From contig MAAN01000006.1 in assembly GCA_002163135.1 (NCBI GenBank), positions 1 through 64,000 on the forward strand: a stretch of 64,000 nt of DNA, in the 5' to 3' direction. Both the position numbers and the translations under genes were made by a program. Positions 16,984-51,697 of this stretch are shown piece by piece (position 1 is the stretch's first letter; each line of letters starts with the position of its first letter). The notes under the pieces were generated by a model. It was not told where the DNA came from, ran no database searches, and saw only the letters and a list, made by a program, of their open reading frames with translations. This DNA is from Alphaproteobacteria bacterium 46_93_T64. GTDB lineage: Bacteria > Pseudomonadota > Alphaproteobacteria > Sneathiellales > Sneathiellaceae.

Positions 16984-18882
16984 TTAAATAATCCCTTTTT
17001 CTTTTAGGGTCTCGATAATGACATCCGCAGCAGCTTCTACTGAAAGCTTGCCTCCTTCGATTATTATTTCAGCATTTTCCGGAGTTTCATAAGCGGAATC
17101 AATTCCGGTGAAATTCTTAATCTCACCGGCTCTAGCCTTCGCGTAAAGGCCCTTAATGTCGCGTTCCTCGCAAATCTCAAGTGGGGTATCAACAAACACC
17201 TCAAGAAACTCTCTCTCTTCCATCAAGTTACGCGCCATTTGACGTTCGCTTCTAAAAGGAGAAATGAAGGAAACGAGTGTAATAAGGCCAGCATCAGCAA
17301 ATAGCTTCGCAGTTTCTCCGACCCTGCGAATATTCTCAACACGGTCAGCGTCAGTAAAGCCAAGATCTTTATTTAGGCCATGGCGCACATTATCCCCATC
17401 AAGAAGGTAGGTGTGTTTACCCATAATGTGCAATTTCTTCTCAACCTGATTGGCAATGGTTGATTTTCCAGAGCCGGAAAGTCCAGTGAACCACAGGACT
17501 GCGGGTTGTTGGCTTTTCTGTTCCGCACGGGCCTTTTTATCGATATCCACAGACTGCCAGTGAATATTCTCAGCACGCCTTAGAGCAAAGTCAATTACCC
17601 CGGCACCAACGGTTTCATTCGTAAAACGGTCGATCAAGATGAAGGAACCTGTTTTACGATTTTCACCGTAAGCGTCAAAGGACACAGCTTTATCCAAAGC
17701 GAAATTACAGACACCAATCTCGTTAAGAGCCAGCGTCTTTGCCGCCGTGTGTTCAAGCGTATTGACGTTAATTTTATACTTAAGAGCACTAACACGTGCT
17801 GTTGACGTATTTGCTCCCATTTTGAGGATGTAGTTTCTACCGGGAAGTAGCTCTTCGCTGCTCATCCAAACAAGTTTGGCCTCAAATTGGTCCGCAGTAA
17901 CTGGGCGATCTTGAAGCGCACAAAGCGTGTCTCCGCGGCTAATGTCAATTTCGTCATTTAACGTAATTGTTATAGCTTGACCTGCATAGGCTGTTTCTTG
18001 GCTACCATCAAAAGTAACGATGTCTTTTACGGTGCTTGTTTGACCGGAGGCGGGTTCAACAATTCCATCACCAATATGGATGGAGCCGCTGGCCACGGTG
18101 CCAGAGAAACCACGAAAATCAAGATTTGGGCGGTTCACCCACTGCACAGGAAGGCGAAATGGTTTGTCTTCTAAATCTTCGTCTACCTGTACGTCTTCCA
18201 GGTGAGAAAGAAGTGTCGGGCCCTGATACCAACGCATGTTTTCACTATGCGCAATGATATTGTCACCCGCTAGAGCTGAGAGAGGGATTGGGGTTACAGC
18301 GTTAAAATCAAGCTCAGCGGCGAATTCGTTATACTCTTGCACAATTTTGTTGAACACATGGTTGTCATAGTCAACCAGATCCATTTTGTTCACAGCCAAA
18401 ATGACGTTCTTGATTCCAAGGAGAGATACCAGAAAACTGTGCCGCATTGTTTGCGTTAAAATTCCCTTACGAGCATCAATCAGGATGACAGCCAGATCCG
18501 CAGTGGAGGCGCCGGTTACCATGTTACGCGTATATTGTTCGTGTCCCGGTGTATCCGCTACAATAAATTTCCGCTTGTCTGTAGCGAAAAAGCGATAGGC
18601 CACATCAATTGTAATGCCTTGTTCTCTTTCTGCCTGGAGGCCATCGAGTAACAACGCATAATCCAGATTACCGCCTTGGGTTCCAACGCGCTTGCTTTCG
18701 GATGCTAGCGTTGCGATCTGGTCTTCGAACAGCATTTTAGAATCCCAAAGAAGGCGTCCGATAAGTGTACTCTTACCATCGTCTACGCTACCGCATGTGA
18801 TGAAGCGGAGCATGCCTTTTTGTTCTTGAGATCTCAGGTACTCGTCAATTTCAGAATTTGTATTATCCAGAGCTTTGCCCAT
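16984..18882 (-). CDS. cysNC: Bifunctional sulfate adenylyltransferase large subunit / APS kinase (CysN-CysC fusion)
   Basis: Works with CysD to make APS from sulfate and ATP, driven by GTP hydrolysis, then phosphorylates APS to PAPS. 632 residues. N-terminal elongation-factor-like GTPase ([34 protein letters not shown]) and beta-barrel domains to ~430; C-terminal APS kinase from ~455 with Walker [34 protein letters not shown] and [13 protein letters not shown]. The same fused architecture is called NodQ in rhizobia. Start overlaps the cysD stop by one base. No sulfite or PAPS reductase gene lies nearby, so PAPS may feed assimilation elsewhere or sulfation. Confidence 0.96.
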
Positions 18883-19790
18883 TAGAAATAGCCCTCCTGC
18901 TTTTTCCGCTCCATTGATCCAGATTGATCCTTATCGATTAACCTGCCTTGACGCTCAGATGTCCGAGCGACCAGCATTTCCAGAATAATTTCGGGAAGAG
19001 TTGATGCAGTAGATTCAACTGCACCAGTAAGGGGGTAACAACCAAGGGTGCGGAACCTGACAGATTTCATTTTCGGCGTTTCGCCCTCATCCAGTGGCAT
19101 TCTTTCATCATCAACCATGATCATCATGCCATCACGTTCTACCACGGGACGTTTTTTTGCTAAATAGAGCGGTACAATTGGGATATTTTCCAGATATATA
19201 TATTGCCAGATATCCAGTTCAGTCCAGTTCGACAACGGAAATGCACGGATGCTTTCGCCTGGATGCACGCGCGCATTGTACGTATTCCAAAGTTCCGGGC
19301 GCTGTGCCTTTGGATCCCACCGATGAGTTTCTGTCCGGAATGAGAATATACGCTCTTTCGCGCGAGACGCCTCTTCATCGCGTCTCGCCCCGCCAAATGC
19401 GGCGTCAAATTTGTACTGATTAAGTGCTTGCTTTAGGCCTTCAGTTTTCATGACATCCGTATGAAGCGCTGAACCATGACTAAAGGGTCCAATATTCTTT
19501 TCAACTCCGTCAGGGTTAATGTGAACTAACAAATCCAAATCGTATTCTTTAACGATTTTTTCCCTGAATTCGATCATTTCCTTAAATTTCCATGTGGTAT
19601 CTACATGAAGCAAAGGAAAGGGAACGGGGGAGGGGTAGAAAGCTTTTCTTGCTAAATGCAACAAGACCGAACTGTCTTTACCGATAGAGTAAAGCATCAC
19701 CGGTTTTTCAAATTCAGAAACGACTTCCCTGAATATATGAATACTTTCGGCTTCTAACTGTTTTAAATGGGTTAGTCGAGCATTTGGCAT
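18882..19790 (-). CDS. cysD: Sulfate adenylyltransferase small subunit CysD
   Basis: Catalytic subunit forming adenosine-5'-phosphosulfate; partner of CysN. 302 residues from ATG 19790, the same length as E. coli CysD; the GTG at 19808 would add six residues without a ribosome site. Motifs: [20 protein letters not shown] (PP-loop SxGKDS), [46 protein letters not shown] and [12 protein letters not shown]. First gene of the cysD-cysNC operon. Confidence 0.96.
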
Positions 19791-20085
19791 ATTGGCTATT
19801 CTCGTCACTACAAGTTTGCAAATAAAAAACTGATACCTATCGAATTATGTGTTTTTTGCTCTAACTACAAGTCTTAAAGCTTATATTTCACATACTGTTT
19901 ATGTTAATAGTAGTTATTTCCGACAATATTATGTATTTGTTGAAATTTCGGGTGCGAGGGTTTGTTTTTTTTAATTCAGTTGCAGAGTTGTATTACGTAT
20001 TACCCTTTATCGGGCTGGACCAGTTGTTTTAACTGTGCAAAATACCCCTATATAAAATCATACATTCTATTTTGAGGATTTCTGA
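19791..20085. other. Divergent intergenic region cysD / pqiA
   Basis: About 295 AT-rich bases carrying the promoters of two divergent operons. A run of T (around 19965-19971) and many TA-rich hexamers are present, but I see no repeat, hairpin or operator that I can defend. Confidence 0.5.
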
Positions 20086-23747: not shown

Positions 23748-25274
23748 ATGAATGTACTTTTTATTACGATTGATCAATGGCGCGCAGATTGGCTTGGCGC
23801 AAACGGCAATGATACAATCAAAACGCCTAATCTTGATGAACTTGCTAAAGGCGCCGCTCTTTTTAAGAACCATTATACTTGCTCAGCCCCGTGCGGCCCT
23901 TCTCGGGCGACATTGCATACTGGCATGTATCCAACAAACCACCGCTCTATTCGTAACGGTACTCCGCTTGATGGATCTCTCACAAATCTCGCGTTAGAGG
24001 CGCGGAAAGCTGGCCACGAGCCTATGTTGTTCGGATATACGGATGTCACGGTTGATCCACGCGAGAAACATGCAAATGATCCGGATCTGAAAACCTTTGA
24101 AAGTGTTTTGAAGGGATATCAGGTTGGTGCGAAATTAGCAGAGGACAGCCGCCCATGGCTGGCCGATCTAATATCAAAAGGATATGAAGTCGAAGCTGCC
24201 GGATACAGTATTTATCGCCCAGATCCAGATTTTAGTTTGCCAGAGGATCGGCATTCCACATTTGCTCCCGCAAAGTTTAAGGCTGAAGACAGTGAAACAG
24301 CATGGCTTACAAATCGGACAATTGACTATCTAAATACAAGATTTGGAGATCCGTTCTTTTGCCATGTGAGTTACTTGCGGCCACATCCTCCGTTTATCTC
24401 ACCTCCTGAATATCACGACATGTATTCGCCGGAAGATATGCCGCGTCCCCTTCATTTTGGTGATGCAAATGCTGTGGGCGATAGCCATCCAATGTTGGGT
24501 CTCGCGATTGACTATATAAAACAATCCTCATTCTTTGACGCTGAAGATGGACTAGCAAGTGATTTGTCTGAGCAAGATGTTCTTCAGATCCGTGCGACGT
24601 ATTCGGCGCTGGTAAGTGAGGTGGATGCAAATGTCGGGCGATTGCTGTCCACGCTGAAAGCAACAGGCCAGTATGATGAAACAATGATTGTTGTAACCGC
24701 GGATCATGGCGAACAGCTTGGAGATCATCACCTATTTGGAAAATTAGGTTTCTATGATCAAAGCTTCCACATTCCATTGATTATCAAAGCGCCCAAATCT
24801 TGGGATGCACCCGCGCGAACTGTAGATAGTTTTACAGAGTCTATTGATATCATGCCAACCATATTGAACGCGCTTGATCAAGCTGTGCCAGCACAATGTA
24901 ACGGTGCCTCTTTGACCCCTTGGCTGAAGGGCTTAACACCTGGAAAATGGCGGAACTCAGTGCATTGGCTTTTTGATTTTCGGGATGTGGAAAATGCCAT
25001 TCCGGAAAAAGCACTTGGTTTGGCGCATGATGAATGCTCCGTGCTTGTTTATCGCGACGACAGTTTTAAGTATGTGCATTTTGCAGCTTTGCCACCGCTG
25101 CTATTTGATCTTAGAAATGATCCTGATGAATGTCATAATTTGGCGGAAGAGCCGGATTACCAAGCTGTGGTTCTTGATTATGCCCAAAAGATGCTGTCAT
25201 GGCGCATGAAGAATGAAAATGGCACACTTCATAACTACGCCGTGACAGATAATGGTATTATTTCAGCGTCTTAA
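23748..25274 (+). CDS. Alkaline-phosphatase-superfamily sulfatase / phosphonate monoester hydrolase-like enzyme
   Basis: Cytoplasmic (no signal peptide) hydrolase of 508 residues. The formylglycine motif CxPSR is intact: Cys49 in APCGPSRATLHTGM. Metal ligands are visible at the N terminus (FITIDQWRADW, Asp9) and in VTADHGEQLGDHH. Length, absence of a signal peptide and the GPSRATLHTGMYP context resemble the Rhizobium/Burkholderia phosphonate monoester hydrolases and choline-sulfatase-like enzymes; the substrate cannot be fixed from sequence. It needs a formylglycine-generating enzyme or equivalent, not seen here. Ends four bases into the convergent dehydrogenase gene. Confidence 0.82.
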   Translation: MNVLFITIDQWRADWLGANGNDTIKTPNLDELAKGAALFKNHYTCSAPCGPSRATLHTGMYPTNHRSIRNGTPLDGSLTNLALEARKAGHEPMLFGYTDVTVDPREKHANDPDLKTFESVLKGYQVGAKLAEDSRPWLADLISKGYEVEAAGYSIYRPDPDFSLPEDRHSTFAPAKFKAEDSETAWLTNRTIDYLNTRFGDPFFCHVSYLRPHPPFISPPEYHDMYSPEDMPRPLHFGDANAVGDSHPMLGLAIDYIKQSSFFDAEDGLASDLSEQDVLQIRATYSALVSEVDANVGRLLSTLKATGQYDETMIVVTADHGEQLGDHHLFGKLGFYDQSFHIPLIIKAPKSWDAPARTVDSFTESIDIMPTILNALDQAVPAQCNGASLTPWLKGLTPGKWRNSVHWLFDFRDVENAIPEKALGLAHDECSVLVYRDDSFKYVHFAALPPLLFDLRNDPDECHNLAEEPDYQAVVLDYAQKMLSWRMKNENGTLHNYAVTDNGIISAS

Positions 25275-31992: not shown

Positions 31993-33360
31993 ATGGAAGC
32001 AAGAGACGTAAAAACTATCGAAGATGCGAAAGCAATCGTCGAAGAACGAGGCCTTGATTATGTGAAGGTCGGCATCTTTGATGTAGATGGTATTATGCGA
32101 GGGAAATACCTAAATAAATCCAAGTTTTTTAGTATTCTGGATAAAGGATTTGGCTTTTGTGATGTTGTCTTGGGATGGGATGTGGATGACAAGCTATATG
32201 ACAAAGAAAGCTATACCGGATGGAAATCGGGTTACCCTGATGCGCAAGTTGTTCCTGTAATAGATAGTTGCCGCGATCTTCCCATGGAAGATAACATGTT
32301 GCTGTTCCTTCTGGAATTTGCTGACCGAGCTGAGGGGGTGTGCCCACGGGGAGTTTTACGCCGAGTACTCGCAAAAGCCGCTGATATGGGATACACAGCA
32401 ACCGCAGCTTGCGAGTATGAATTTTTCGTCTTTAAAGAAACACCAAAATCTGTCCGTGAGAAGAACTATAAAGATCTTGAAACTCTAACGCCGGGTAATT
32501 TCGGATATTCCATGTTGCGGGCGTCTGTTGAGTCAGAATTTTACGAACAGCTCCTTGAGTTGTGTACGCGAATGGATATGCCGATTGAGGGTTTGCATAC
32601 GGAGACAGGCCCAGGTGTTCTTGAAGCCGCGCTCGAATATGACGAAGCCCTTGCAGCAGCCGATAAGGGTGCTTTATTCAAGACATTTACTAAGGTATTG
32701 GCACAGAAGAATGAGCTGATGGCCACGTTTATGGCTAAATGGTCGCCGGACTATCCGGGGCAAAGCGGCCATATTCACCTATCCCTTGCCAACAAAGAAG
32801 GCGGCAGCGTCTTTCATGACCCAGGTAAGCCAGACAACATGAGTGATGCTATGCGCCATTTTATTGGCGGTCAGCAGGCTCTTATGCCACAGGTTCTTGC
32901 AATGGTCTCTCCGACAATCAATAGCTATACCCGTCTAATACCAGGCTTTTGGGCGCCAACCGACGCCAGTTGGGGAATGGATAACCGGACTTGTGCTTTG
33001 CGGGCAATTCCGGGCGACCCTAATTCGCAACGCGTCGAATATAGGATTTCTGCGGCTGATATGAACCCGTATATTGCTATCGCTGCGGCACTTGGGTCTG
33101 GTCTTTGGGGTATTGAAAATAAAATAGAACCAACTGATGGTATTGTTGGAAGTGCTTATGAAGTCGAATTCCCGGAACATCTTGCTTTGCCAAGAACACT
33201 CGGAGATGCAGCAGAGGCTTTAAGAAAATCTGAAGCTGCACGCGAATTGTTCGGTGACGCTTTCGTTGATCATTATGCAATAACCCGTGATTGGGAAGAG
33301 CGTGAATTCCGCCGTGCAATTACTGACTGGGAAATGCAACGCTATTTCGAAATTATTTGA
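31993..33360 (+). CDS. Glutamine-synthetase-family ligase (probable gamma-glutamyl-amine/amino-alcohol synthetase)
   Basis: 455 residues of the GlnA fold, but with the features of GS-like enzymes that ligate glutamate to amines (PuuA, IpuC, GlnA4 types) rather than housekeeping GS. N-terminal beta-grasp: VKVGIFDVDGIMRGKYLNKSKF. Catalytic part: AACEYEFFVFKETP (metal Glu residues), LHTETGPGVLEAALEYD in place of the usual GS H-x-E-V-A-x-x-Q loop, GQSGHIHLSL, SYTRLIPGFWAPTDASWG and RVEYRISAADMNPYIAIAAAL. No Tyr adenylylation loop is recognised. It stands first in a run with a glutamine-amidotransferase-like hydrolase, an aldehyde dehydrogenase and an alcohol dehydrogenase, the set needed for a gamma-glutamylation pathway (inference). 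Confidence 0.85.
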   Translation: MEARDVKTIEDAKAIVEERGLDYVKVGIFDVDGIMRGKYLNKSKFFSILDKGFGFCDVVLGWDVDDKLYDKESYTGWKSGYPDAQVVPVIDSCRDLPMEDNMLLFLLEFADRAEGVCPRGVLRRVLAKAADMGYTATAACEYEFFVFKETPKSVREKNYKDLETLTPGNFGYSMLRASVESEFYEQLLELCTRMDMPIEGLHTETGPGVLEAALEYDEALAAADKGALFKTFTKVLAQKNELMATFMAKWSPDYPGQSGHIHLSLANKEGGSVFHDPGKPDNMSDAMRHFIGGQQALMPQVLAMVSPTINSYTRLIPGFWAPTDASWGMDNRTCALRAIPGDPNSQRVEYRISAADMNPYIAIAAALGSGLWGIENKIEPTDGIVGSAYEVEFPEHLALPRTLGDAAEALRKSEAARELFGDAFVDHYAITRDWEEREFRRAITDWEMQRYFEII

Positions 33361-33388
33361 GTGAACCTCAATTTATCAGGAGGGAGAA

Positions 33389-34852
33389 GTGTTTTTCTCC
33401 GTTGATCGTGGGTTAAAAACGAGCATTCAGGAACAGCTGCGTACAAAAATTGTCGCAGCCATTCTTGAGGGTCAGTTAATGCCCAGTTCACTTCTTCCCT
33501 CGACCCGGGAACTAGCTCGAAAATTGAATATCTCTCGAACCACGGTTGTAAGTGTTTACGAGAAATTGGTCGAAGATGGATTTCTTATCTCGAAAGACCG
33601 TTCGGGTTTTTGTGTAAGCCCGAATGCAAAACCATTGGCCTTTACTGTGCCGAAAACCGTACCAAAATCTCATAATGAGGCACTTGCTGATGCGCCTAGT
33701 TGGCACCAGCGTTATAAGCTGAACCCAAGTCTGCAGCGCAATATTAGTAAGCCAACAGATTGGCAGAATTATCGATATCCATTTGTTTATGGTCAGCCGG
33801 ATCCCACCCTTTTTCCACTGGCGGCCTGGCGGGAATGTTCGCGTCAAGCGATGAGTGAACTTGCGATGCGTGACTGGTCCGGCGACGCTATCGCAGAAGA
33901 CGACCCCTATCTAATTCAGGAAATAAGATCCAAACTACTCCCGCGCAGAGGCATATTTGCCAAAGACGAAGAGATTTTAATTACAGCGGGGGCGCAAAAT
34001 GGGCTTTTTCTTATTGCGTCTTTGCTAATGAATAAGGGGGTTACTGTTGGGGTGGAAGAGCCCGGATACCCTGATGCTCGAAATATTTTTTCCATTCACG
34101 GCGCAAAAATACATCCTCTTGAGATTGATACGGAGGGGGCCCAAACGCCTGCTGAAAATATCCACTGCGATTATCTTTTCCTGACGCCAAGTCATCAGTC
34201 TCCAACAACCATTACAATGTCAGTAAAGCGCCGTGAAGAATTTTTTGAGAATGCCACGCGCGAAGACAGCATCATCATTGAAGATGATTTTGAAAGTGAT
34301 ACAAATTATCTTGGCTCACCAGTCTCTGCAATGAAAGCGGATGATGAAAACGGGCGGGTTATCTATGTGGGAAGTTTATCCAAATCGATGTTCCCCGGCT
34401 TAAGGCTTGGATATATTGTTGGTAGTTCGGATCTCATAAAGGAGTTGAGGGCACTTCGCAGATTGGTTCTGCGTCATGTTCCAAACAATAATCAACGCAC
34501 GACCTCACTCTTCATTTCTCAAGGTTTTCATGACACTTATGTTAGGAAGCTGAACCGGGTTTATCAGGAACGTTGGCAAGTGATGCAAGAGAGCATTGAT
34601 CAGTATTTGCCGGGGATGAGCGAGAGCCCTAAATTTGGTGGAACAAGTTTTTGGATGGCTGGAGGGTTGGGCGTTGATTCTGGGGAATTAGCAGAGCAGG
34701 CCTTGCAGCAAAGTGTGGTTATAGAGCCGGGACTTCCTCATTTCCAAAATCTTAATAATAAAGAACACTTTTTTAGATTGGGTTTTTCCTCAATCCCCAC
34801 TGAACGAATTGCAGATGGCGTGCGACTTTTGTCGCTGATTTTGAAAAAATGA
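33389..34852 (+). CDS. MocR-type PLP-dependent transcription regulator
   Basis: 487 residues. N-terminal GntR winged helix (residues ~10-75: LPSTRELARKLNISRTTVVSVYEKLVEDGFL) joined to a class I aminotransferase-like domain with the PLP Lys in VGSLSKSMFPGLRLGY and VGVEEPGYPDARNIF. MocR proteins (GabR, TauR, PdxR, EnuR) regulate use of amino compounds that react with PLP or their products. Start GTG 33389 follows a strong AGGAGGGAG site. It sits 28 bases after the GS-like gene and likely controls this cluster. Confidence 0.92.
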   Translation: MFFSVDRGLKTSIQEQLRTKIVAAILEGQLMPSSLLPSTRELARKLNISRTTVVSVYEKLVEDGFLISKDRSGFCVSPNAKPLAFTVPKTVPKSHNEALADAPSWHQRYKLNPSLQRNISKPTDWQNYRYPFVYGQPDPTLFPLAAWRECSRQAMSELAMRDWSGDAIAEDDPYLIQEIRSKLLPRRGIFAKDEEILITAGAQNGLFLIASLLMNKGVTVGVEEPGYPDARNIFSIHGAKIHPLEIDTEGAQTPAENIHCDYLFLTPSHQSPTTITMSVKRREEFFENATREDSIIIEDDFESDTNYLGSPVSAMKADDENGRVIYVGSLSKSMFPGLRLGYIVGSSDLIKELRALRRLVLRHVPNNNQRTTSLFISQGFHDTYVRKLNRVYQERWQVMQESIDQYLPGMSESPKFGGTSFWMAGGLGVDSGELAEQALQQSVVIEPGLPHFQNLNNKEHFFRLGFSSIPTERIADGVRLLSLILKK

Positions 34853-34979
34853 TTATTCTGGTCTTATTCAATTTTAACAATTGGACCTAACGAGTCAACT
34901 GTCGTTCCTCTACCAAAGATACCAGATAATCTTGCAGCATTGCGCGCAGGTTGAAATACTCAAATCATGAGGTGCGTTT

Positions 34980-35834
34980 ATGGGATATAGTACAATTGAA
35001 GTTGAAAGAATGGGTGCGTCTTTAGGGGCATATGTTCATGGTGTGGATTTTTCAAAGAAACTTTCGGATGAACAATTTCAAGATGTCCATGACGCTTTAG
35101 TAGACAATTCTGTAATTTTCTTTCGCGATCAAGATTTATCGCGTGAAGGTCAAATGGAAATTGGACACCGATTTGGAACTCCTGAAATACACCCCATTGT
35201 CGCTGGTTCCAATGACCACCCAGAACTGATCGAAGTGCTGAAGCCGGCTGGTGAAGGGGCGTCATTTGGTACAGGATGGCACACAGATAATACTTTTTTT
35301 GAAAAACCAACCATGATTACAATGCTTTATGGTATTGAAACACCGCCAGTTGGGGGTGATACCATGTGGGCGAGCATGGAAAAAGCCTATGATCATCTCT
35401 CCGATGGTATGAAAGAAATGCTTGCGGATATGGTTGTTGTTCATTCAGCAAAAGTAGCTTTTGATCCACGCACTACTGCAGATAAGTATGAAGGGAAACA
35501 TTCTCTCAAGTATACATATTCTGATGTGGTGAATGAAGAAGTTGAGCATCCACTTATTAGAACACACGATGTTTCTGGTCGGAAAAGTATTTTCGTGAAC
35601 CCGATGTTCAGCATTCGCATCAAGGGAATGACTGAAAAGGAGAGCGCGCCAATCCTTCAGTATTTATATGATTTCTCAACGCAGCCAGAGTTCGTTTGCC
35701 GTTTCCGTTGGCAAGATAAATCAATAGCTATGTGGGATAACCGCTGCACGCAGCATTTTGCCATGAACGATTATGTTGAATATAAGCGTTTGATGCGCAG
35801 GATTACAATCGGCGGCGATAAACGCCCAGTATAA
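34980..35834 (+). CDS. TauD/TfdA-family 2-oxoglutarate, Fe(II)-dependent dioxygenase
   Basis: 284 residues, the length of taurine dioxygenase. The iron triad is intact: His101-x-Asp103 in GTGWHTDNTF and His259 in RCTQHFAMNDY, with the 2-oxoglutarate Arg in LMRRITIGG. The N terminus (LGAYVHGVDFSKKLSDEQF) is the usual TauD start. Substrates of the family include sulfonates, phenoxy-acids and phosphonates; no sulfonate transporter is adjacent. Followed 35 bases on by the amidotransferase-like hydrolase. Its role in the cluster (hydroxylating an amine, sulfonate or aminophosphonate) is unknown. Confidence 0.88.
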   Translation: MGYSTIEVERMGASLGAYVHGVDFSKKLSDEQFQDVHDALVDNSVIFFRDQDLSREGQMEIGHRFGTPEIHPIVAGSNDHPELIEVLKPAGEGASFGTGWHTDNTFFEKPTMITMLYGIETPPVGGDTMWASMEKAYDHLSDGMKEMLADMVVVHSAKVAFDPRTTADKYEGKHSLKYTYSDVVNEEVEHPLIRTHDVSGRKSIFVNPMFSIRIKGMTEKESAPILQYLYDFSTQPEFVCRFRWQDKSIAMWDNRCTQHFAMNDYVEYKRLMRRITIGGDKRPV

Positions 35835-35869
35835 TCAGCCTGTAGCTTTTTTAAGACGGAATACTCTTT

Positions 35870-36727
35870 ATGGTGAACAACACAATTCGCTTTCTCATTC
35901 TCGATGGATATCCCAAAATTCATCGAGCGCCTTTGGTTGATAATGGCGGAACACTTGCGGGCGAGCTCTATGCACAACGACTTAAAGACTGTGCGCCGGG
36001 ATGCGAGACACATGTTTTGTTTCCCGCCGATGCAGACTGTGCTTTGCCGCAAGGAGAAAGCCTTGAACAGTATGACGGAATTGTCTGGACGGGATCTAGT
36101 CTGACTATTCATGACGAAACCGATGTGCAGGTAGTCCGTCAAATTCGCTTTGCTCAAGCTGCTTTCGAAGCAGGGGTACCTATGTTTGGAAGTTGCTGGG
36201 CGGCTCAGATGGCTGTAACAGCGGCAGGCGGAAGATGTGCCCCCAATCCTCGAGGACGTGAGTTTGGATTGGCCCGTAAAATCGAATTAACGCCAGCCGG
36301 ACGCGGACATCCACTTTACGCAGGGAAACGATCTGTTTTCGATGGATATACTAGTCATCAAGACGAGATAACGCATTTGCCGACAGGCGCTGTGGCTCTT
36401 GCCGGAAACGAGTTTACTTCCGTGCAGGCCGTTGATGTCACGTATAAAAAAGGTAGCTTCTGGGCATTGCAGTATCATCCTGAATACGATCTGCATGAGA
36501 TTGCCAGTCTTTGCCGTTGGCGTCGTGATGCTTTAACAGTGCAAGGAAATTTTGCAACTATTAGGGAAGCAGATCAATACATCGAGAAGCTGGAAGTACT
36601 TCATGAGGAGCCTAGCCGTTCCGACTTAAGATGGCAGCTTGGTGTGGACGATGACGTTCTCAACAGCGATGTCAAAATGTTGGAAATTCGAAACTGGATA
36701 GCAGCTAAAGTGCTTTTTCAGGGCTAA
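35870..36727 (+). CDS. Class I glutamine-amidotransferase-like hydrolase (candidate gamma-glutamyl hydrolase)
   Basis: 285 residues. The catalytic Cys109 lies in MFGSCWAAQMA and the His203/Glu205 pair in LQYHPEYD, so the GATase1 triad is complete. No synthetase domain is attached and no partner is adjacent, which fits a stand-alone hydrolase of the PuuD/IpuF type that removes gamma-glutamate, rather than GMP synthase. The C-terminal ~80 residues (after the His) form an extra charged region. Paired with the TauD-like gene in one transcript; the companion GS-like ligase is 2.5 kb upstream. Confidence 0.8.
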   Translation: MVNNTIRFLILDGYPKIHRAPLVDNGGTLAGELYAQRLKDCAPGCETHVLFPADADCALPQGESLEQYDGIVWTGSSLTIHDETDVQVVRQIRFAQAAFEAGVPMFGSCWAAQMAVTAAGGRCAPNPRGREFGLARKIELTPAGRGHPLYAGKRSVFDGYTSHQDEITHLPTGAVALAGNEFTSVQAVDVTYKKGSFWALQYHPEYDLHEIASLCRWRRDALTVQGNFATIREADQYIEKLEVLHEEPSRSDLRWQLGVDDDVLNSDVKMLEIRNWIAAKVLFQG

Positions 36728-36742
36728 TATCGGTCTAATTTT

Positions 36743-37501
36743 TTAGAGCGCAACTTTGATCTTATTCGCACCAATTTGATCGACGATATCATCCGGCGGC
36801 ATCTGATCTGTGATAAGTAGGTCGATATCCTTAAGCGCGCATACATTGATCACTCCAGGTTTGTCAAATTTGGTGTGATCTACCGCTACAATTAGTTGTT
36901 CCGTTTGCGGGATGATCGCGCGTTTAAATTCGGCTTCTGGCAAATCAAAATCTAGACACCCTTGTTTGCCATGAATAGATCCCATTGAAATAACAGCTTT
37001 TTGTGTTGTGAATTGACGTGCAAATTCTACAGCTGCGGGGCCATATGATGCACTATCGTCAGATCGGATTTCACCGCCAGCCATAAAAACGCGATTGTGA
37101 TTACGAGAGCATAACTCCCGGGCTACCTCGGTCGAATTTGTAACAACTGTAAGATTTCTGTAGGCAATGAGTTCTTTGGCAAAGTAACAGGACGTACTGC
37201 CATTATCTATGAGCAGGGTTTCGCCGTCTTTAACAAGGCTTGCAATAAGCCGTGCAATTTTTTGCTTTTCTTCGCGTTGCTCTTGCAAGCGGCTGAGAAA
37301 TGGCGGTTCCAAGGAATTGTGAGGTAGCATAACGCCGCCATGAATTTTTTCGACCGCACCTGTTGCCGCCAAATGTCGAATGTCGCGCCGAATGGTTTCA
37401 TCAGAAACGTCCAAATGTTCAGCGAGTTCGATAACACTGCATGAGTTTCGGATTTGCAGCACTTTCATGATTTCGAGCTGTCTTTTTGATTGTTTGATCA
37501 T
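36743..37501 (-). CDS. DeoR-family transcription regulator
   Basis: 252 residues from ATG 37501 (a start at 37546 would add 15 residues beyond the family norm). N-terminal helix-turn-helix with the DeoR signature (VIELAEHLDVSDETIRRDIRHLAATG ... KIHGGVML) and a C-terminal sugar-isomerase-like sensor domain with IDNGSTSCYFAKEL, VVTNSTEVAREL and GSIHGKQGCLDFDLPEAEFKRAI. DeoR proteins usually sense phosphorylated metabolites. Divergent from the aldehyde dehydrogenase gene 260 bases away, which it likely controls. Confidence 0.9.
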   Translation of the reverse strand: MIKQSKRQLEIMKVLQIRNSCSVIELAEHLDVSDETIRRDIRHLAATGAVEKIHGGVMLPHNSLEPPFLSRLQEQREEKQKIARLIASLVKDGETLLIDNGSTSCYFAKELIAYRNLTVVTNSTEVARELCSRNHNRVFMAGGEIRSDDSASYGPAAVEFARQFTTQKAVISMGSIHGKQGCLDFDLPEAEFKRAIIPQTEQLIVAVDHTKFDKPGVINVCALKDIDLLITDQMPPDDIVDQIGANKIKVAL

Positions 37502-37760
37502 GAAATTTCGACTCACAATTAGATTTACGGTAATTGGACTTAACATGAAATGATGGAATTCAAAATAAAAATGTGGAAATCCAACTTATTTATGACATTT
37601 TTGTTGAATATCTGACGGTATTAAGTGAAAGCTGATGAGGTGTACTAGCGAATGTGAAAAAAATGGTTGAGGTATAGAGGCGAAAATGACTAAATAGCTT
37701 CAAATTACGAGATGACTGGTCACTTGTAATATAACCATCCTGTTTAAGTGGATTTTATAT

Positions 37761-39152
37761 ATGTCTGATAGTTTGAAATGTTATAGCCCGGTTGACGGCA
37801 GCCTTTATCTTGAGCGTCCTTATATGTCAGCAAGTGACATTCCCGCGCTGATCAAAAATGCTGAAGAAGCACAAGCTGAGTGGAAGCTAAAAACCGTTGA
37901 AGAGCGCGCAGAGTTGCTTCGAAAATGCGTTGCTAATTTTGTGGCGAAGCAAGAAACTATATCAGAAGAACTTGCGTGGCAGATGGGACGGCCTATCCGC
38001 TTTGGCGCTGGTGAAGTTGGCGGCTTTAATGAGCGTGCCACTCATATGATTTCGATTGCAGAAGAGGCTTTGAAGCCGGTCGCGGTTGAAGAAAAAGAAG
38101 GTTTCACAAGATACATCAAACGCGAACCATTGGGTGTTGTCTTTACAATTGCGCCGTGGAATTTCCCGTACATGACTGCTGTGAACTCTATCGTTCCTGC
38201 GTTGCTTGCAGGGAATGCATTAATTTTGAAGCATGCTACTCAAACTCATTTGTGCGGCGAAACCATGCAAAAGGCCTTTGTTGAAGCAGGACTACCTGAA
38301 GGCCTTTTCCAACTCGTTGTCGCAACTCATAAATTTGCGGCTGATCTTATTCAGTCTGGTGGCGTCAATTTTGTGGCCTTTACCGGATCAGTTCCAGGTG
38401 GTACCGCCATTGAAACAGCCGCGTCTGGGCAGTTCATTGGTGTCGGGCTGGAACTAGGCGGTAAAGATCCTGCTTATGTGCGCGGTGATGCTGATCCCGC
38501 GTATGCTGCTGAGAATCTTGTAGATGGCGCTATGTTTAACTCCGGTCAATCCTGCTGCGGTATTGAACGCATTTATGTGCATGAAGATGTCTATGACGCT
38601 TTCGTCGAAAATGTCGTTAAAACTGTAAACGAGTATAAATTGGGCTCACCGCTTGATCCGGAAACAACTTTGGGCCCTTGCGTGAATGCGAAAGGGGCTG
38701 ATTTTGTCCGCGGACAAATCAAAGATGCAGTGGCAGCTGGTGGTAAAGCGCTGATCGACCCAGCCACCTTTACGGCAGACAAAGAAGGTACGCCTTATCT
38801 CGCGCCGCAGGTTCTGGTCAACGTTGATCATAGTATGCGTGTTATGACTGAAGAAAGTTTCGGTCCGGTTGTTGGCATTATGAAAGTCTCAACAGACGCG
38901 GAAGCGATCAAATTGATGAATGACAGTGAGTTTGGTCTTACCGCCTCTGTTTGGACAAATGATGAAGCAGCAGCAATTGAAATTGGGGATCAGGTGAATA
39001 CTGGGACATGGTTCATGAACCGCTGCGATTATCTTGATCCTGCGCTTGCTTGGACAGGTGTTAAAAATTCTGGCCGGGGTTGTACGCTTTCAAGTGTGGG
39101 CTTTGAAAGCCTGACACGTCCAAAGTCCTACCACTTGCGCACAAAAATCTAA
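37761..39152 (+). CDS. NAD(P)-dependent aldehyde dehydrogenase
   Basis: 463 residues. APWNFPYMTAVNSIVPALLAGN, GLELGGKDPAYV (catalytic Glu) and FNSGQSCCGIERIYVHE (catalytic Cys) are intact, as is EESFGPVVGIM. Belongs to the succinate-semialdehyde/gamma-glutamyl-aminoaldehyde type of ALDH rather than to a known specific subgroup I can name. It is 12 bases before an iron alcohol dehydrogenase, so the pair could oxidise an alcohol to an acid through the aldehyde. In this context the likely substrate is a gamma-glutamylated amino aldehyde; phosphonoacetaldehyde (PhnY activity) is an alternative. Confidence 0.88.
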   Translation: MSDSLKCYSPVDGSLYLERPYMSASDIPALIKNAEEAQAEWKLKTVEERAELLRKCVANFVAKQETISEELAWQMGRPIRFGAGEVGGFNERATHMISIAEEALKPVAVEEKEGFTRYIKREPLGVVFTIAPWNFPYMTAVNSIVPALLAGNALILKHATQTHLCGETMQKAFVEAGLPEGLFQLVVATHKFAADLIQSGGVNFVAFTGSVPGGTAIETAASGQFIGVGLELGGKDPAYVRGDADPAYAAENLVDGAMFNSGQSCCGIERIYVHEDVYDAFVENVVKTVNEYKLGSPLDPETTLGPCVNAKGADFVRGQIKDAVAAGGKALIDPATFTADKEGTPYLAPQVLVNVDHSMRVMTEESFGPVVGIMKVSTDAEAIKLMNDSEFGLTASVWTNDEAAAIEIGDQVNTGTWFMNRCDYLDPALAWTGVKNSGRGCTLSSVGFESLTRPKSYHLRTKI

Positions 39153-39163
39153 GGATTGTATAT

Positions 39164-40342
39164 ATGTCTCTAAGTATCGAACAACTTTCAGGAAACTGGA
39201 ATTATCCAACAGCTGTACGATTTGGTGTTGGCCGAGCGCAGGAAATTGGTGAAGCATGTAAAGAGCTAGGAATGAAAAACCCCTTGCTCGTAACGGATCC
39301 AGGTCTCGCAGGCCTGCCTATGATCAGTAATGCTGTGGCATCATGCGAAGCTGCTGGTTTGAAATGTGCCGTTTTTAGCGATATTAAACCAAACCCAGTC
39401 GGGGAAAATGTAGAAGACGGCGTTGCCGTTTACCGCAGTAATGGACATGACGGCGTAATCGCGTTTGGTGGTGGCTCTGGCTTGGATGCAGCTAAGGCAA
39501 TTGCTTTGGTATCTGGGCAAACAGGCAGCGTGTTTGATTATGAAGATGCAGGCGACAATTGGACGTTGGTTAAGCCTGAAGGTGTCGCACCAATTGTTGC
39601 GGTTCCGACAACTTCTGGTACTGGATCTGAAGTTGGGCGTGCATCTGTCATTACAGATGCGGCAAATCACGTTAAGAAAATCATTTTCCACCCGAAAATG
39701 CTGCCAGCAATTGTTGTTGCTGACCCAGAACTTACTGTTGGTTTGCCCGCGCACATTACAGCGGCAACTGGAATGGATGCGCTTTCGCATAATCTGGAGG
39801 CTTATTGCTCTCCGTTCTTTCATCCAATGGCAGAAGGCATCGCGGTTGAAGGTATTCGGCTTGTAAAAGAATATTTGCCGACTGCGGTTGAGGATGGAAC
39901 TGATCTTATCGCTCGCAGTCAAATGATGGTTGCTTCAACAATGGGCGCGACTTCGTTTCAGCGCGGCCTTGGCGGAATGCATGCATTAGCTCATCCTCTT
40001 GGCGCTTTGTATGATGCCCATCATGGTTTGCTAAACGCAATCTTGATGCCTTATGTACTAATCCGTAATCGATCTGAAATTGAAGAGCGCATCGCACGCC
40101 TTGCATCTTATATGGGATTGGAAGATGCGAGTTTTGATGGGTTCCTAAACTGGGTTCTTGATTTGCGTAAGCAGCTTAATATCCCGAATGACTTGGGCGC
40201 GCTTAATATTGACGATGAAAAAGCTGATTTGGTGGGCCGTATGGCTGTTGAAGATCCGTCGTCGGGCGGTAACCCAATTTCACTAACTGCCGAAGAGTAT
40301 ACAGAAGTTTTCCTAAAAGCGGTTAAAGGCGATCTAGGCTAG
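39164..40342 (+). CDS. Iron-containing (group III) alcohol dehydrogenase
   Basis: 392 residues. Cofactor loop FGGGSGLDAAKAIAL, PTTSGTGSEVGRASVI and the iron-binding region AATGMDALSHNLEAYCSPFFHPMAEG and MHALAHPLGALYDAHHGLLNAI with the Asp and His ligands. Group III enzymes oxidise or reduce short alcohols and aldehydes, including phosphonoacetaldehyde reductase in phosphonate makers. Co-transcribed with the preceding aldehyde dehydrogenase; followed by a strong bidirectional terminator. Confidence 0.92.
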   Translation: MSLSIEQLSGNWNYPTAVRFGVGRAQEIGEACKELGMKNPLLVTDPGLAGLPMISNAVASCEAAGLKCAVFSDIKPNPVGENVEDGVAVYRSNGHDGVIAFGGGSGLDAAKAIALVSGQTGSVFDYEDAGDNWTLVKPEGVAPIVAVPTTSGTGSEVGRASVITDAANHVKKIIFHPKMLPAIVVADPELTVGLPAHITAATGMDALSHNLEAYCSPFFHPMAEGIAVEGIRLVKEYLPTAVEDGTDLIARSQMMVASTMGATSFQRGLGGMHALAHPLGALYDAHHGLLNAILMPYVLIRNRSEIEERIARLASYMGLEDASFDGFLNWVLDLRKQLNIPNDLGALNIDDEKADLVGRMAVEDPSSGGNPISLTAEEYTEVFLKAVKGDLG

Positions 40343-46450: not shown

Positions 46451-47854
46451 ATGACACTTGGTACGGAAGTGGAAAAAACACGTCCTCATCAATCGGAAGG
46501 GGACGTGAATTTTTCGCCGCGCAGAAAAGAGTGGGCGGCAAAGAATATTGACAGCACGACAGCAGCATTATTGAAACGTGATGCAAATGCCTTTCTGCAT
46601 CAGTCGGTTTCCAGTCCCTGCCTCAATAGTATTAAGAGTGCGGAGGGCGCCTACATTATAGATGGCCAAGGGCGTCGGTATTTGGATTTCCACGGTAATA
46701 ATGTCCATCATATCGGATATGGTCATCCGCGCTTGAAGGCCGCAATCGCCAAGCAAATGGATGACTTGTCATTTGCACCTCGTCGTTTTGCATGTGAACC
46801 CGCGGTGGAATTAGCGGAGAAACTCGCAGAAATATCGCCTGGTGATCTATCAAAAGTGTTGTTTGCTACAGGTGGATCAGACGCTATTGAAATGGCAATG
46901 AAAGTTGCGCGTGCAAAAACAGGCCGATTTAAGACCATTTCGTTCTGGGATGCTTTTCACGGTGCGGGGTTCGGCGCATCCAGTATTGGCGGAGAACAAC
47001 TATTTCGGGGTCAGGCAATAGGGCCCTTACTTCCGGGGACAGAGCATGTAGCACCTTATGCTTGCTATCGCTGTCCTTATGGCTTTGAAGTCGATGCGAA
47101 CGGCCAACCTAACCAACAGGTGTGTAAAACCACCTGCGCCAACATGATCCGCTATGTACTTGAAAAAGAGGGTAATGTCGCTGCTGTTATTGCGGAACCT
47201 GCTCGGGCTGTTCCGTACACACCGCCACCTGGTTTCTGGAAAATGGTGCGGGAAGCTTGTAACGACGCAGGTGCATTGTTAATTTTTGATGAAATCCCTA
47301 CTGGACTTGGTAAAACGGGACGTTTATTTGCCTGTGATCATGATGACGTGACCCCAGATATTTTGGTAATGGGTAAAGCGCTCGGCGGAGGTATCTTACC
47401 TATTGCAGCAACACTTTGCAGACCTGAGCTTGATGTTCTTGGCGACTATGCAATCGGGCATTATACCCATGAGAAAAACCCGGTTACAACACGAGCAGCC
47501 CTGACGACCATCGAAATTATTGAAGATGAAGGACTGGTGGAAAATGCCGCAACGGTAGGCGCTTTTGCGCTTGAACGCATGCAGGATATGAAAGACAAAT
47601 ACTCGCTTATCGGTGATGTGCGGGGGCGTGGTTTCCTTCTGGGGCTTGAGCTGGTGACTGACAGGGATAGCAAAGAGCCAGCCAAGGACGAAGCAGAAGA
47701 AATCCTCTATCGTGCGTTTGATGCTGGTTTGAGTTTCAAAACTACAATGGGGAATGTACTTACACTTACCCCATCGCTCATAACGACCAAGGAGCAAATG
47801 GATTTCGCTCTTGATGTGCTGGAAGATGCAATACGCATCGTATCCTCACGCTAG
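46451..47854 (+). CDS. pbfA: (R)-1-hydroxy-2-aminoethylphosphonate ammonia-lyase, PbfA-like (class III aminotransferase fold)
   Basis: PLP enzyme of 467 residues with the class III transaminase fold. PLP Lys309 in LVMGKALGGGI, Asp280 in LIFDEIPTGLGKTG, and phosphate-binding GGSDAIEMAMKVARAKTG. PbfA enzymes convert (R)-1-hydroxy-AEP to phosphonoacetaldehyde and ammonia, feeding the same intermediate as PhnW. The assignment rests on the fold, the Cys-containing insert YACYRCPYGF (residues ~203-213) and the position between an AEP transporter and phnW, the setting in which PbfA was discovered. A true transaminase for AEP analogues is the main alternative. Confidence 0.82.
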   Translation: MTLGTEVEKTRPHQSEGDVNFSPRRKEWAAKNIDSTTAALLKRDANAFLHQSVSSPCLNSIKSAEGAYIIDGQGRRYLDFHGNNVHHIGYGHPRLKAAIAKQMDDLSFAPRRFACEPAVELAEKLAEISPGDLSKVLFATGGSDAIEMAMKVARAKTGRFKTISFWDAFHGAGFGASSIGGEQLFRGQAIGPLLPGTEHVAPYACYRCPYGFEVDANGQPNQQVCKTTCANMIRYVLEKEGNVAAVIAEPARAVPYTPPPGFWKMVREACNDAGALLIFDEIPTGLGKTGRLFACDHDDVTPDILVMGKALGGGILPIAATLCRPELDVLGDYAIGHYTHEKNPVTTRAALTTIEIIEDEGLVENAATVGAFALERMQDMKDKYSLIGDVRGRGFLLGLELVTDRDSKEPAKDEAEEILYRAFDAGLSFKTTMGNVLTLTPSLITTKEQMDFALDVLEDAIRIVSSR

Positions 47855-49165: not shown

Positions 49166-50869
49166 GTGGATGCAACATCAGTACTGATAAGTTTGCTAGG
49201 AGGTGTATCCCTTCTGCTTTGGGGCCTGAGAATGGTCAACACGGGTGTTACCCGGGCATATGGCCGAGAGCTTGGAAAGATCCTGAACTTCAGTCTGAAA
49301 AACAGAGTGAATTCATTCTTTGGTGGCCTTGGGGTCACCATGCTTTTGCAAAGTAGTACTGCAACGGCACTCCTGACAGCGTCATTTGCTGGCAGGGGGC
49401 TTGTTGCAGCTTCTGCTGGCATCGCTGTTATGTTAGGTGCTGATGTTGGGACTACATTAGTCGCGCAGGTATTGAGTTTCGACTTATCGTGGCTGGCACC
49501 TATTCTTCTATTCGTTGGATTTATACGTCACTCTACCGCTAAATCCACACGTGCCAAAAACTTGGGCCGGATATTACTTGGTCTAGGGATGATGCTAACC
49601 GCACTTAAATTGCTGGTTTTAGCGTCTGGGCCGATCAGGGATTCTGAAGTTGCACAATTTGTCTTTAGCTCGTTATCTGGTGAACCTCTTTTAACCGTTA
49701 TAATTGGTGCCCTGATAACGTTTGTTGCCCACTCCAGTTTGGCGACGGTCTTGTTTATTCTGACGTTGGTTGCAACCGGCGGCGTTCCAATGGATGTGGC
49801 ACTTGCCATGATCCTTGGGGCAAACTTGGGTGGAGCCTTGCCGCCAGTACTCGCGACAATGAACGCGGATGCGCCGTCACGACGCCCGCCGCTTGGTAAT
49901 TTGATTTGCCGTGTGATCGCAGTTCTGGTTGTGCTGCCTTTCCTAGGTATCATGGGGTCAGAGCTTGCGAAATTGACCGCCGACCCAGCACGTCAGATCG
50001 TAAACTTCCATACTGGTTTTAACTTGGCCTTAGCTGCAGTGTTCATTTTCTTTACTGGACCTCTTGGGCGGTTGACCGAACTTCTTCTGCCGGAAAAGGT
50101 TGATAATGATAACGCCGCGCCACGCCCAATCCACTTGGATCGCGCCGCTCTAGCAAGCCCTCAACTTGCCATGGCAAACGCAGTGAGAGATACGCTGCGG
50201 ATGGGAGATATCGTCGAGAAAATGTTCCGCGATTTTCACGAGGCATTCAAAAAGAACGATACAAAGCTATTACAAAAAGTGAGAGATTCTGATGATAGTA
50301 TCAAGGAATTCAATGCAGGCGTGAAAAGCTATTTGACGGAACTTGGCCGTGAAATGCTAGAAGAAGAAGACGAAAAACGCTGCACGGATATTATGACATT
50401 CACTACGAATATGGAGAATGTGGGGAATATCGTTGTGTTGAATATGGCAGAGCTGTTAGAGCGCAGCACCAATCATCAAGTCGCCTTTTCAAAAGAAGAT
50501 ACAGAAGATCATAACAAACTGTTTGATATGGTCCTTGCTAACCTTAAACTTTCTTTTAGTGTCTTTATGACGAAAGAGAACGCGGCCGCCCGAAGCTTGA
50601 TTGAGCAAAAACAGGCGCTGCGTGATAAGGAACATCTGGCTGTAAATGCGCATTTGGAACGATTGCGCCGTAACGAGCACATGGACGAAGTGTCGAGTGC
50701 TATGCACCTTGGCTTACTGAGCGATTTGCGTCGTATCAACTCCATGATTACGTCAGTGGCTTATCCAATTGTTGCAGAGAGTGAAGCGCAAAATAATGCA
50801 GCAAAGAAAGCAAAGAAAAGCGAGAAGGATAAATCGAACAAACGTTTCGATCCTGCAAGTAATCTTTAA
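49166..50869 (+). CDS. Na/Pi cotransporter family protein with C-terminal PhoU-like domain
   Basis: 567 residues. Two Na/Pi cotransport repeats in the membrane part (~1-300): GGLGVTMLLQSSTATALLTASFAGRGL and FVAHSSLATVLFILTLVATGG contain the QSSTAT and HSSLAT motifs. The C-terminal ~230 residues are helical and PhoU-like (DIVEKMFRDFHEAFKKNDTKLL). Bacterial relatives such as YjbB export phosphate. It starts (GTG 49166) eight bases after phnW, so it is co-transcribed with it; a role in removing Pi freed from phosphonates is likely (inference). Confidence 0.9.
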   Translation: MDATSVLISLLGGVSLLLWGLRMVNTGVTRAYGRELGKILNFSLKNRVNSFFGGLGVTMLLQSSTATALLTASFAGRGLVAASAGIAVMLGADVGTTLVAQVLSFDLSWLAPILLFVGFIRHSTAKSTRAKNLGRILLGLGMMLTALKLLVLASGPIRDSEVAQFVFSSLSGEPLLTVIIGALITFVAHSSLATVLFILTLVATGGVPMDVALAMILGANLGGALPPVLATMNADAPSRRPPLGNLICRVIAVLVVLPFLGIMGSELAKLTADPARQIVNFHTGFNLALAAVFIFFTGPLGRLTELLLPEKVDNDNAAPRPIHLDRAALASPQLAMANAVRDTLRMGDIVEKMFRDFHEAFKKNDTKLLQKVRDSDDSIKEFNAGVKSYLTELGREMLEEEDEKRCTDIMTFTTNMENVGNIVVLNMAELLERSTNHQVAFSKEDTEDHNKLFDMVLANLKLSFSVFMTKENAAARSLIEQKQALRDKEHLAVNAHLERLRRNEHMDEVSSAMHLGLLSDLRRINSMITSVAYPIVAESEAQNNAAKKAKKSEKDKSNKRFDPASNL

Positions 50870-50959: not shown

Positions 50960-51697
50960 TCACGAAAGCATCCTGTCTGGGAAGTCGGTGATAATCGCGT
51001 CCACACCCCAATCAAGAAGTTGCTTGGCCCGTTCTATATCGTTCACTGTAAACACAAGAAAGCGATAACCCGCGTCCTTCACTGCTTTAACGGCGTCTTC
51101 CGTAACAAACTCGTGGCTGCAATGCAGGCTATCTGCCCTTGCTTCCCTGAGGCGTCGTTCCCATTCGTCCGGAATGGTATCTGCAAGATAGCCGCGAGGC
51201 AGGTGGGGAAGCATGTCTCCAATTGTTACCAATGCTTCAATATTGAATGATGAGAGAAGGACTGGGAGATCTGAAGGTAGTTTTTCTTTCAACTCTTGCC
51301 CAACGAGCTTTGCTGTTGGGACCTGCCAACCGTCTGTCGGTTTTATTTCCAAGTTCAGACTCATTTCGTGACTGCGTACGATCTCAATGGCCTCTGCAAG
51401 TGTAGGGATTTGTTCGCCTTTATATTCACTTGAAAACCAACTACCAGCATCCAGAGACTTAATTTCATTTAGGGACTTGAGAAGTACTGGACCCTTGCCA
51501 TTTGTACAGCGATCCACGCTCATGTCGTGGCAGATGACGCAATGATCATCAGCCGTAACCATGACATCAATTTCAATGGACCTAGTCCCTATTTCAGCTG
51601 CTTTGTGAAAAGAGGCACGGGTATTCTCTGGTGCCAAACCACATGCGCCACGATGTCCGACTATTCGGGGCATGGTTTCAAAAAATGTGGCTCTCAT
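50960..51697 (-). CDS. Glycerophosphodiester phosphodiesterase (UgpQ-like)
   Basis: Hydrolyses glycerophosphodiesters to glycerol-3-phosphate and an alcohol. 245 residues, cytoplasmic (no signal peptide), the UgpQ size. GDPD motif at the N terminus: VGHRGACGLAPENTRASF, EIDVMVTADDHCVICHD with the metal ligands, and LNLEIKP. Start ATG 51697 follows AGGAGA. Substrates could include glycerophosphoethanolamine, which would release ethanolamine (compare the neighbouring amine cluster; inference). Confidence 0.92.
   Translation of the reverse strand: MRATFFETMPRIVGHRGACGLAPENTRASFHKAAEIGTRSIEIDVMVTADDHCVICHDMSVDRCTNGKGPVLLKSLNEIKSLDAGSWFSSEYKGEQIPTLAEAIEIVRSHEMSLNLEIKPTDGWQVPTAKLVGQELKEKLPSDLPVLLSSFNIEALVTIGDMLPHLPRGYLADTIPDEWERRLREARADSLHCSHEFVTEDAVKAVKDAGYRFLVFTVNDIERAKQLLDWGVDAIITDFPDRMLS

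Follow-up and report, generated by a model that had tools for sequence, protein, structure and literature searches.

Breakdown of ethanolamine by gamma-glutamylation is an already known route, since it has been described for Phaeobacter, Chromohalobacter and Streptomyces. In Phaeobacter sp. MED193, the genes concerned are given as RpiR, GGAH, EtoV, EtoW, EtoX, ETAGA, GAADDH and GETADH; several of them are reported to be upregulated on phosphorylethanolamine, and EtoX is reported to bind ethanolamine with a dissociation constant of 7.9 uM (Westermann et al. 2023, PMC10132767). The families of the C. salexigens pathway are listed as PF00120, PF00465, PF00171 and PF05013 (table in PMC9397018), in a scheme which later papers credit to Vetting et al. 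2015. Streptomyces GlnA4 is reported to be a gamma-glutamylethanolamide synthetase (PMC6529630). Here a related locus is described from Alphaproteobacteria bacterium 46_93_T64, whose closest named relatives are Sneathiella. It occupies positions 31993-40342 of the window, by which is meant the whole stretch analysed (64,000 nucleotides of contig MAAN01000006.1), and encodes a glutamine synthetase (GS)-like ligase, a MocR-type regulator, a TauD-family dioxygenase, a class-I amidotransferase-like hydrolase (GATase), a DeoR/GlpR-family regulator, an aldehyde dehydrogenase (ALDH) and an iron alcohol dehydrogenase (Fe-ADH). The host assembly comprises 41 contigs totalling 4.0 Mb; two GS genes in it exceed the cut-off, the second being GlnA-like.

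The window GS, ALDH and Fe-ADH most likely belong to the described route from ethanolamine to glycine. We consider it likely that the pathway is split in this genome between the window enzymes and a second group of genes on contig 38, and that the window part encloses a separate TauR-like MocR-TauD-GATase module. The ligase would join ethanolamine to glutamate at the expense of ATP, giving gamma-glutamylethanolamide, which Fe-ADH would convert to gamma-glutamyl-aminoacetaldehyde and ALDH to gamma-glutamylglycine; an FGase-family hydrolase encoded on contig 38 would then release glycine and glutamate, with EtoVWX as the importer and RpiR as the regulator. The MocR-TauD-GATase module most likely serves taurine or a taurine derivative. 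These substrates, reactions and modes of regulation are read from gene content, conservation, protein families, an operator-like repeat and the descent of the hydrolase. The original prediction, made from the letters of the window alone, had placed GS, GATase, ALDH and Fe-ADH in one gamma-glutamylation pathway for an amino alcohol such as ethanolamine. Its chemistry was probably right, and already described; its hydrolase was probably misassigned, and it overlooked the TauR-like TauD module, the dioxygenase gene between MocR and the hydrolase not being listed.

The ligase is not a typical GlnA. It scores 212 bits against the NCBIfam type I GlnA model (cut-off 429) and is 64-68% identical to aligned GS proteins of EtoX-type or similar operons, compared to 28% for the organism's own GlnA. 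The metal ligands that were checked, E129, E131 and H269 (Salmonella numbering), are kept together with H271, R321 and R344, and a Trp stands where GlnA has E327; the motif search did not resolve positions E212, E220, E357 and R359. GlnA4 and PauA7 are reported to carry Phe or Trp at the E327 position (PMC6529630). The window GS fails the gamma-glutamylputrescine synthetase model (185.5 bits, cut-off 650), and there is no PuuB-type FAD oxidase among the annotated neighbours, the whole genome not having been searched for PuuB.

Related ligase loci were sampled from one scan of genome contigs, 80 being taken from 574 confirmed. The main neighbourhood counts cover the 50 of these with at least 5 kb on each side (L001 and L002 were left out) and were made by tblastn, because the open reading frame (ORF) caller gave no GS in 16 of the 80. 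ALDH accompanies the GS family in 47 of the 50 and Fe-ADH in 42; with both present in 39, the grouping is far beyond accident. One of three hydrolase families occurs in 32 of the 50 loci. Gamma-glutamylation of ethanolamine is the best reading of the ligase, Fe-ADH and ALDH, and an EtoX-type tripartite ATP-independent periplasmic (TRAP) binding protein or an amino-acid permease is found in 22 of the 50; across all 80 loci the EtoX-type protein is present in 13 and the permease in 14. The two permeases tested from these loci both pass the TIGR00908 ethanolamine permease model (584 and 553 bits, cut-off 381.75). The EtoX-like protein of Thalassospira matches structure 4uab with 564 bits over 319 residues, and 4uab we take to be ethanolamine-bound Csal_0678. 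In a survey of 25 genomes of the order (G-numbered below), the GS was present in 21 at an E value of 1e-60, and EutB had no match in any of the 25. The open-access literature yielded no paper linking Sneathiella with ethanolamine.

The second half of the pathway would lie on contig 38. An EtoX orthologue (77% identical to the EtoX-like protein) is encoded there at 35551-36606 and an FGase-family (PF05013) gene at 38598-39206, both on the minus strand; the order is RpiR on the plus strand, then FGase, EtoV, EtoW and EtoX on the minus strand, which is the published operon order. The genome has four FGase-family genes, none of them within 31993-40342. That on contig 38 shares 43-44% identity with the GS-linked FGases of L017 and L062, and FGase and EtoX are likewise paired by coordinates in G002, G004, G005, G006, G010 and G012. 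From this neighbourhood, the contig-38 FGase appears to be a better candidate than the GATase for the pathway's hydrolase, and EtoVWX the better candidate for its importer.

Between the ligase and the two dehydrogenases, the MocR-TauD-GATase genes appear to form a unit of their own. A TauD orthologue (at least 73% identical) is present in 14 of the 25 order genomes (one copy is divided between the ends of two contigs), and it adjoins GS in all 11 in which both lie on one contig. Beyond the genus, 19 sampled genomes encode TauD homologues at 44-54% identity, and 18 of them were examined at the best match of each; GATase stands beside TauD in eight of these 18, and this GS is absent from all those stretches. 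As a side observation, the neighbour of TauD is an FAD/GcvT demethylase-like protein in L138 (by Pfam) and likewise in L142 (by similar length and start), and a Na:alanine-type symporter in L143, L144 and L150.

The MocR protein looks like a TauR, judging from its gene partners and from an operator-like repeat that tracks taurine genes in several relatives. The TauR direct repeat is given as CTGGACYTAA (PMC5320631, section 14), and the pair CTGGTCTTA / TTGGACCTA ahead of TauD is the sole exact match in the genome to the 31-base pattern. With up to two mismatches the whole genome gave 12 matches compared to 20 in a backward control, and with up to three the window gave three where 2.9 were expected. 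The weight rests on the exact match and its position only. Among nine TauD upstream regions of the genus, the repeat is present with at most two mismatches in six and with three in one, and two have none. In G008 and G021, a class-III aminotransferase replaces TauD-GATase beside MocR at the equivalent site, with the repeat ahead of it (two mismatches and one, respectively). These two are among the only three of 25 order genomes with Xsc above cut-off, and in G008 the repeat also lies about 155 bases ahead of xsc (two mismatches), with pta following. When four loci were each resampled 60 times under a Markov model, no repeat arose at the same thresholds. G001 has a MocR near xsc that shares 48% identity with the window protein. 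In G013, MocR lies near an AGCS symporter and the repeat was not found, while stray repeats with two or three mismatches also occur in L278 (not ahead of xsc), L184 and L185. The 25 NCBIfam rows listed include no TauR-specific model. Both regulators named in the original prediction are present, and MocR goes with TauD. For DeoR, the palindrome TGTGGANNTCCACA is found with at most two mismatches in the DeoR-ALDH gap of 14 of 14 sequences, in the window as TGTGGAAATCCAAC; over the whole window, palindromes of this type are not above chance.

Several observations weigh against a split ethanolamine pathway with an enclosed TauR-like module. EtoX was matched in only 13 of the 25 order genomes, and eight of the 21 with GS have no EtoX match. 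FGase and EtoX are paired in just seven of the 13 EtoX genomes, this one counted, and G012, of the same genus, has the two together yet no GS match. In G001, GS adjoins EtoX and neither ALDH nor Fe-ADH was detected within the examined stretch. L188, from the other genus, has EtoX beside GS, with MocR, TauD, GATase, DeoR, ALDH and Fe-ADH all undetected in the stretch examined. The choice of the contig-38 FGase among four rests on neighbourhood and 43-44% identity. The TauR repeat was not found ahead of TauD in L179, L180 or any of the 18 outside loci, nor ahead of xsc in G021 or G001, and the window MocR passes the NCBIfam PdxR model (343.5 bits, cut-off 320). Finally, no operator shared by GS and ALDH-FeADH was found ahead of them, the palindrome being conserved only between DeoR and ALDH, so any co-regulation of GS and ALDH is conjectural.

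Whether the MocR-TauD-GATase genes have any functional tie to the ethanolamine genes is evenly balanced. They may have been inserted by chance, as the site between GS and DeoR is variable, holding TauD-GATase, an aminotransferase, an AGCS symporter or nothing, and TauD-GATase occurs elsewhere with no such GS. The constant adjacency of TauD and GS in the 11 checkable genomes speaks for a tie, as does the possibility that the chemistry of the TauD product and the substrate of ALDH could meet.

It is unlikely that the GATase is the pathway's own gamma-glutamylglycine hydrolase, with all four enzymes encoded locally as in the original prediction. In favour of that assignment, other bacteria carry GATase homologues (37-48% identity) after GS-ALDH-FeADH, the TauD next to the GATase keeps its place beside GS, and the catalytic Cys-His-Glu is intact as claimed (Cys109, His203 and Glu205, invariant across 26 aligned relatives). 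The predicted structure (mean predicted local distance difference test, pLDDT, 94.4) has a class-I GATase fold without a synthase domain. Its best structural match is Arabidopsis gamma-glutamyl peptidase 1 (Z 26.2, root-mean-square deviation 2.9, 247 aligned residues), other class-I amidotransferases matching from Z 24.2 downward; this fold would fit a gamma-glutamyl hydrolase without proving one. A PuuD-type identity was considered and rejected (Peptidase_C26 26.4 bits, above the Pfam cut-off, compared to 48.7 for GATase), and SpuA, at Z 19.1, ranks below gamma-glutamyl peptidase 1.

The descent of the GATase points elsewhere. In a tree of 39 rows (37 distinct; L031 left out), 11 of 12 GS-operon GATases form one clade (support 95/85) which excludes the window's, the twelfth, from L020, being unplaced. 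All 13 Sneathiella rows (11 distinct) cluster together with 100/100 support, and their nearest outside relative is the TauD-paired L150, a grouping of moderate support (83/77). The residue following the catalytic Cys-Trp is Gly in all 12 GS-operon GATases (SCWG) and Ala in all 13 Sneathiella and all eight TauD-paired proteins (SCWA). Since the window GATase falls outside the GS-operon clade and the TauD-GATase pair occurs without such a ligase, it looks like the partner of TauD by descent. Moreover, four genus genomes (L182, L183, L185 and L186) keep GS-DeoR-ALDH-FeADH without MocR, TauD or GATase, C. salexigens uses a PF05013 hydrolase, and such a gene adjoins EtoVWX on contig 38. Of the single four-enzyme set proposed originally, the clustering of GS, ALDH and Fe-ADH stands, while membership of the hydrolase is probably wrong. 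Two tree members deserve mention in their own right. The GATase of G005 (L175:11169-11678) is in frame for about its first 170 residues, reflecting a broken gene or an assembly error, and was nevertheless retained in the tree. In a Desulfocapsa metagenome-assembled genome (L020:4692-10000), a GATase (48%) is followed by an AepX-like binding protein (43%), an ABC permease, GS and ALDH; the binding protein and permease form a different importer, maybe for the same pathway.

To judge from its pocket residues, the window TauD probably either uses a different anion from free taurine or holds taurine differently. Against the taurine dioxygenase model it reaches 261.7 bits, where 313 are required. 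It retains the iron and 2-oxoglutarate residues found in E. coli TauD, together with His70 and Arg270 on the anion side. Tyr73, Asp94, Asn95 and Val102 of the E. coli enzyme, which have roles in taurine binding, are replaced by Val, Phe, Gly and Asn in 13 of 13 Sneathiella rows; P. putida TauD retains the E. coli residues in an alignment judged by eye. The changes at Tyr73, Asp94 and Asn95 are also found in nearly all outside homologues, whether or not a GATase is present, so they mark the TauD clade rather than GATase pairing. This argument is not based on the predicted TauD structure, whose quality is poor at the active site (mean pLDDT 71.0).

A convergence of the taurine and ethanolamine routes on gamma-glutamyl-aminoacetaldehyde is quite unlikely. 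TauD would either remove the sulfonate from a taurine whose nitrogen is blocked (gamma-glutamyltaurine, for instance) or yield aminoacetaldehyde for the ligase to cap; the common ALDH would then produce gamma-glutamylglycine, which the paired hydrolase would split into glycine and glutamate. An N-blocked substrate may be entertained because the anion-side His and Arg are kept while the amine-facing E. coli residues are replaced, and in E. coli aminoacetaldehyde is listed as a dead-end metabolite of TauD (PMC3781023). Against this, none of the eight outside TauD-GATase genomes has an ethanolamine-type GS, which weakens a general gamma-glutamyltaurine route: three have other GS-like proteins (best 33-37% identity), four have only a match of 88-102 bits, at the level of GlnA, and one has none at 1e-20. 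The pocket changes, as noted, also occur in TauD relatives lacking GATase. A search of the open-access literature found nothing relevant joining gamma-glutamyltaurine with a dioxygenase (one paper, by its title, concerns the nervous system), and for operons of taurine dioxygenase and glutamine amidotransferase it returned only papers whose titles and opening abstract lines are unrelated.

That a different amino alcohol or amine, such as alaninol, 1-amino-2-propanol or isopropylamine, undergoes this chemistry instead of ethanolamine is very unlikely. GS-like enzymes of this fold differ in their amine, the ligase stays under the cut-off of every NCBIfam ligase model tested, and the structure of Csal_0678 has reportedly also been solved with 2-amino-1-propanol; nevertheless two unrelated transporter types beside the GS family point to ethanolamine, and the genome has its own EtoX orthologue. 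That ALDH and Fe-ADH act on 4-hydroxybutyrate or succinate semialdehyde independently of GS is highly improbable: the NCBIfam models that they match best are those for 4-hydroxybutyrate dehydrogenase (337 bits) and for succinic semialdehyde dehydrogenase (310 bits), and DeoR forms a separate divergent unit with them, but those scores fall under the cut-offs of 500 and 521, and both enzymes track the GS family.

The features are collected in Table 1. The genes named in the original prediction (GS-like, MocR, GATase, DeoR, ALDH and Fe-ADH) are real, being intact ORFs at the coordinates given with strong family matches.

Table 1. Features of the locus and associated genes in the window
Feature	Position	Strand	Evidence
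GS-like ligase, proposed ethanolamine gamma-glutamylase	31993..33360	+	PF00120 324.6 bits
MocR-type regulator, resembling TauR in operator and gene partners	33389..34852	+	PF00392 (GntR) and PF00155 (aminotransferase)
TauR-type direct repeat CTGGTCTTA / TTGGACCTA, spacing 23 bases, ahead of TauD	34858..34889	+	
TauD-family Fe(II)/2-oxoglutarate dioxygenase	34980..35834	+	PF02668 212 bits
Class-I amidotransferase-like, gamma-glutamyl-peptidase-like hydrolase (GATase)	35870..36727	+	tree, motif, fold
DeoR/GlpR-family regulator, divergent from ALDH-FeADH	36743..37546	-	PF00455 164 bits, PF08220 62 bits
Candidate DeoR operator TGTGGAAATCCAAC, DeoR-ALDH gap	37572..37585	.	palindrome TGTGGANNTCCACA
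ALDH, proposed gamma-glutamyl-aminoacetaldehyde dehydrogenase	37761..39152	+	PF00171 406.6 bits
Fe-ADH, proposed gamma-glutamylethanolamide dehydrogenase	39164..40342	+	PF00465 170.6 bits
Na/Pi cotransporter family protein, probably associated	49166..50869	+	PF02690
Glycerophosphodiesterase, possible ethanolamine source	50960..51697	-	PF03009 159.4 bits

Head-group genes had also been pointed out nearby, and both a glycerophosphodiesterase and a 2-aminoethylphosphonate (AEP) cluster do occur. In five relatives (L179, L180, L181, L183 and L184), Fe-ADH is directly followed by the Na/Pi transporter and the glycerophosphodiesterase, and in the window the AEP cluster intervenes. On this synteny the glycerophosphodiesterase may well supply ethanolamine from glycerophosphoethanolamine; the AEP cluster looks like a separate neighbouring pathway. 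It comprises a LysR protein just under its phosphonate model, PhnW (488 bits) and, at 46451-47854, PbfA, the (R)-1-hydroxy-2-aminoethylphosphonate ammonia-lyase (668 bits, cut-off 525). Past the window, a PhnA phosphonoacetate hydrolase (L238:4424-5662, G000:C10:68424-69662; 527.5 bits, cut-off 407.55) has an ALDH-like gene adjacent, and together with the window PhnW these could complete AEP breakdown. A sulfatase-fold hydrolase at 23748-25274 resembles PehA (580.7 bits, under the cut-off of 900), and in L003, L185 and L186 it likewise stays close to the GS genes. Sulfate assimilation genes (an APS kinase-GTPase fusion and a PAPS-reductase-family protein) lie at 16984-19808, about 15 kb from TauD.

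The locus places a Sneathiella-type bacterium among the likely users of ethanolamine gamma-glutamylation, and its conserved synteny with a phosphodiesterase and a phosphate transporter fits salvage of phospholipid head groups. It also corrects a tempting annotation, in that the pathway probably does not use the nearest hydrolase. Were a gamma-glutamyl intermediate shared with the TauD module, use of taurine sulfur would be tied to ethanolamine breakdown, and the fate of aminoacetaldehyde would be explained.

Compared to the PuuABCD and IpuC systems, the locus shares the principle of adding glutamate, oxidising and removing glutamate again, although its ligase falls well short of the PuuABCD-type gamma-glutamylputrescine synthetase model. 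Arabidopsis gamma-glutamyl peptidase 1 is the closest solved fold to the window GATase, yet the two are only 17% identical. The window TauD resembles that of E. coli in its iron, 2-oxoglutarate and anion-side residues, and differs from it in the four replaced positions and in missing the model cut-off. With the TauR regulons it has in common the MocR architecture and a direct repeat near CTGGACYTAA (PMC5320631); here, however, the gene proposed to be controlled is of the TauD family and comes with a GATase, and the MocR scores as PdxR. Streptomyces coelicolor GlnA4 (SCO1610-SCO1615) is likewise associated with ethanolamine gamma-glutamylation, dehydrogenases and a hydrolase, whereas its alcohol step is assigned to a short-chain dehydrogenase in a figure legend, and that account gives another regulator and no TauD (PMC6529630). 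The operons of Phaeobacter sp. MED193 and C. salexigens, compared by families and gene order, are alike in their GS-like ligase, Fe-ADH and ALDH and in the RpiR-hydrolase-EtoV-EtoW-EtoX order seen on contig 38; in this genome, by contrast, the pathway is split over two places, and MocR-TauD-GATase and DeoR separate the ligase from ALDH-FeADH.

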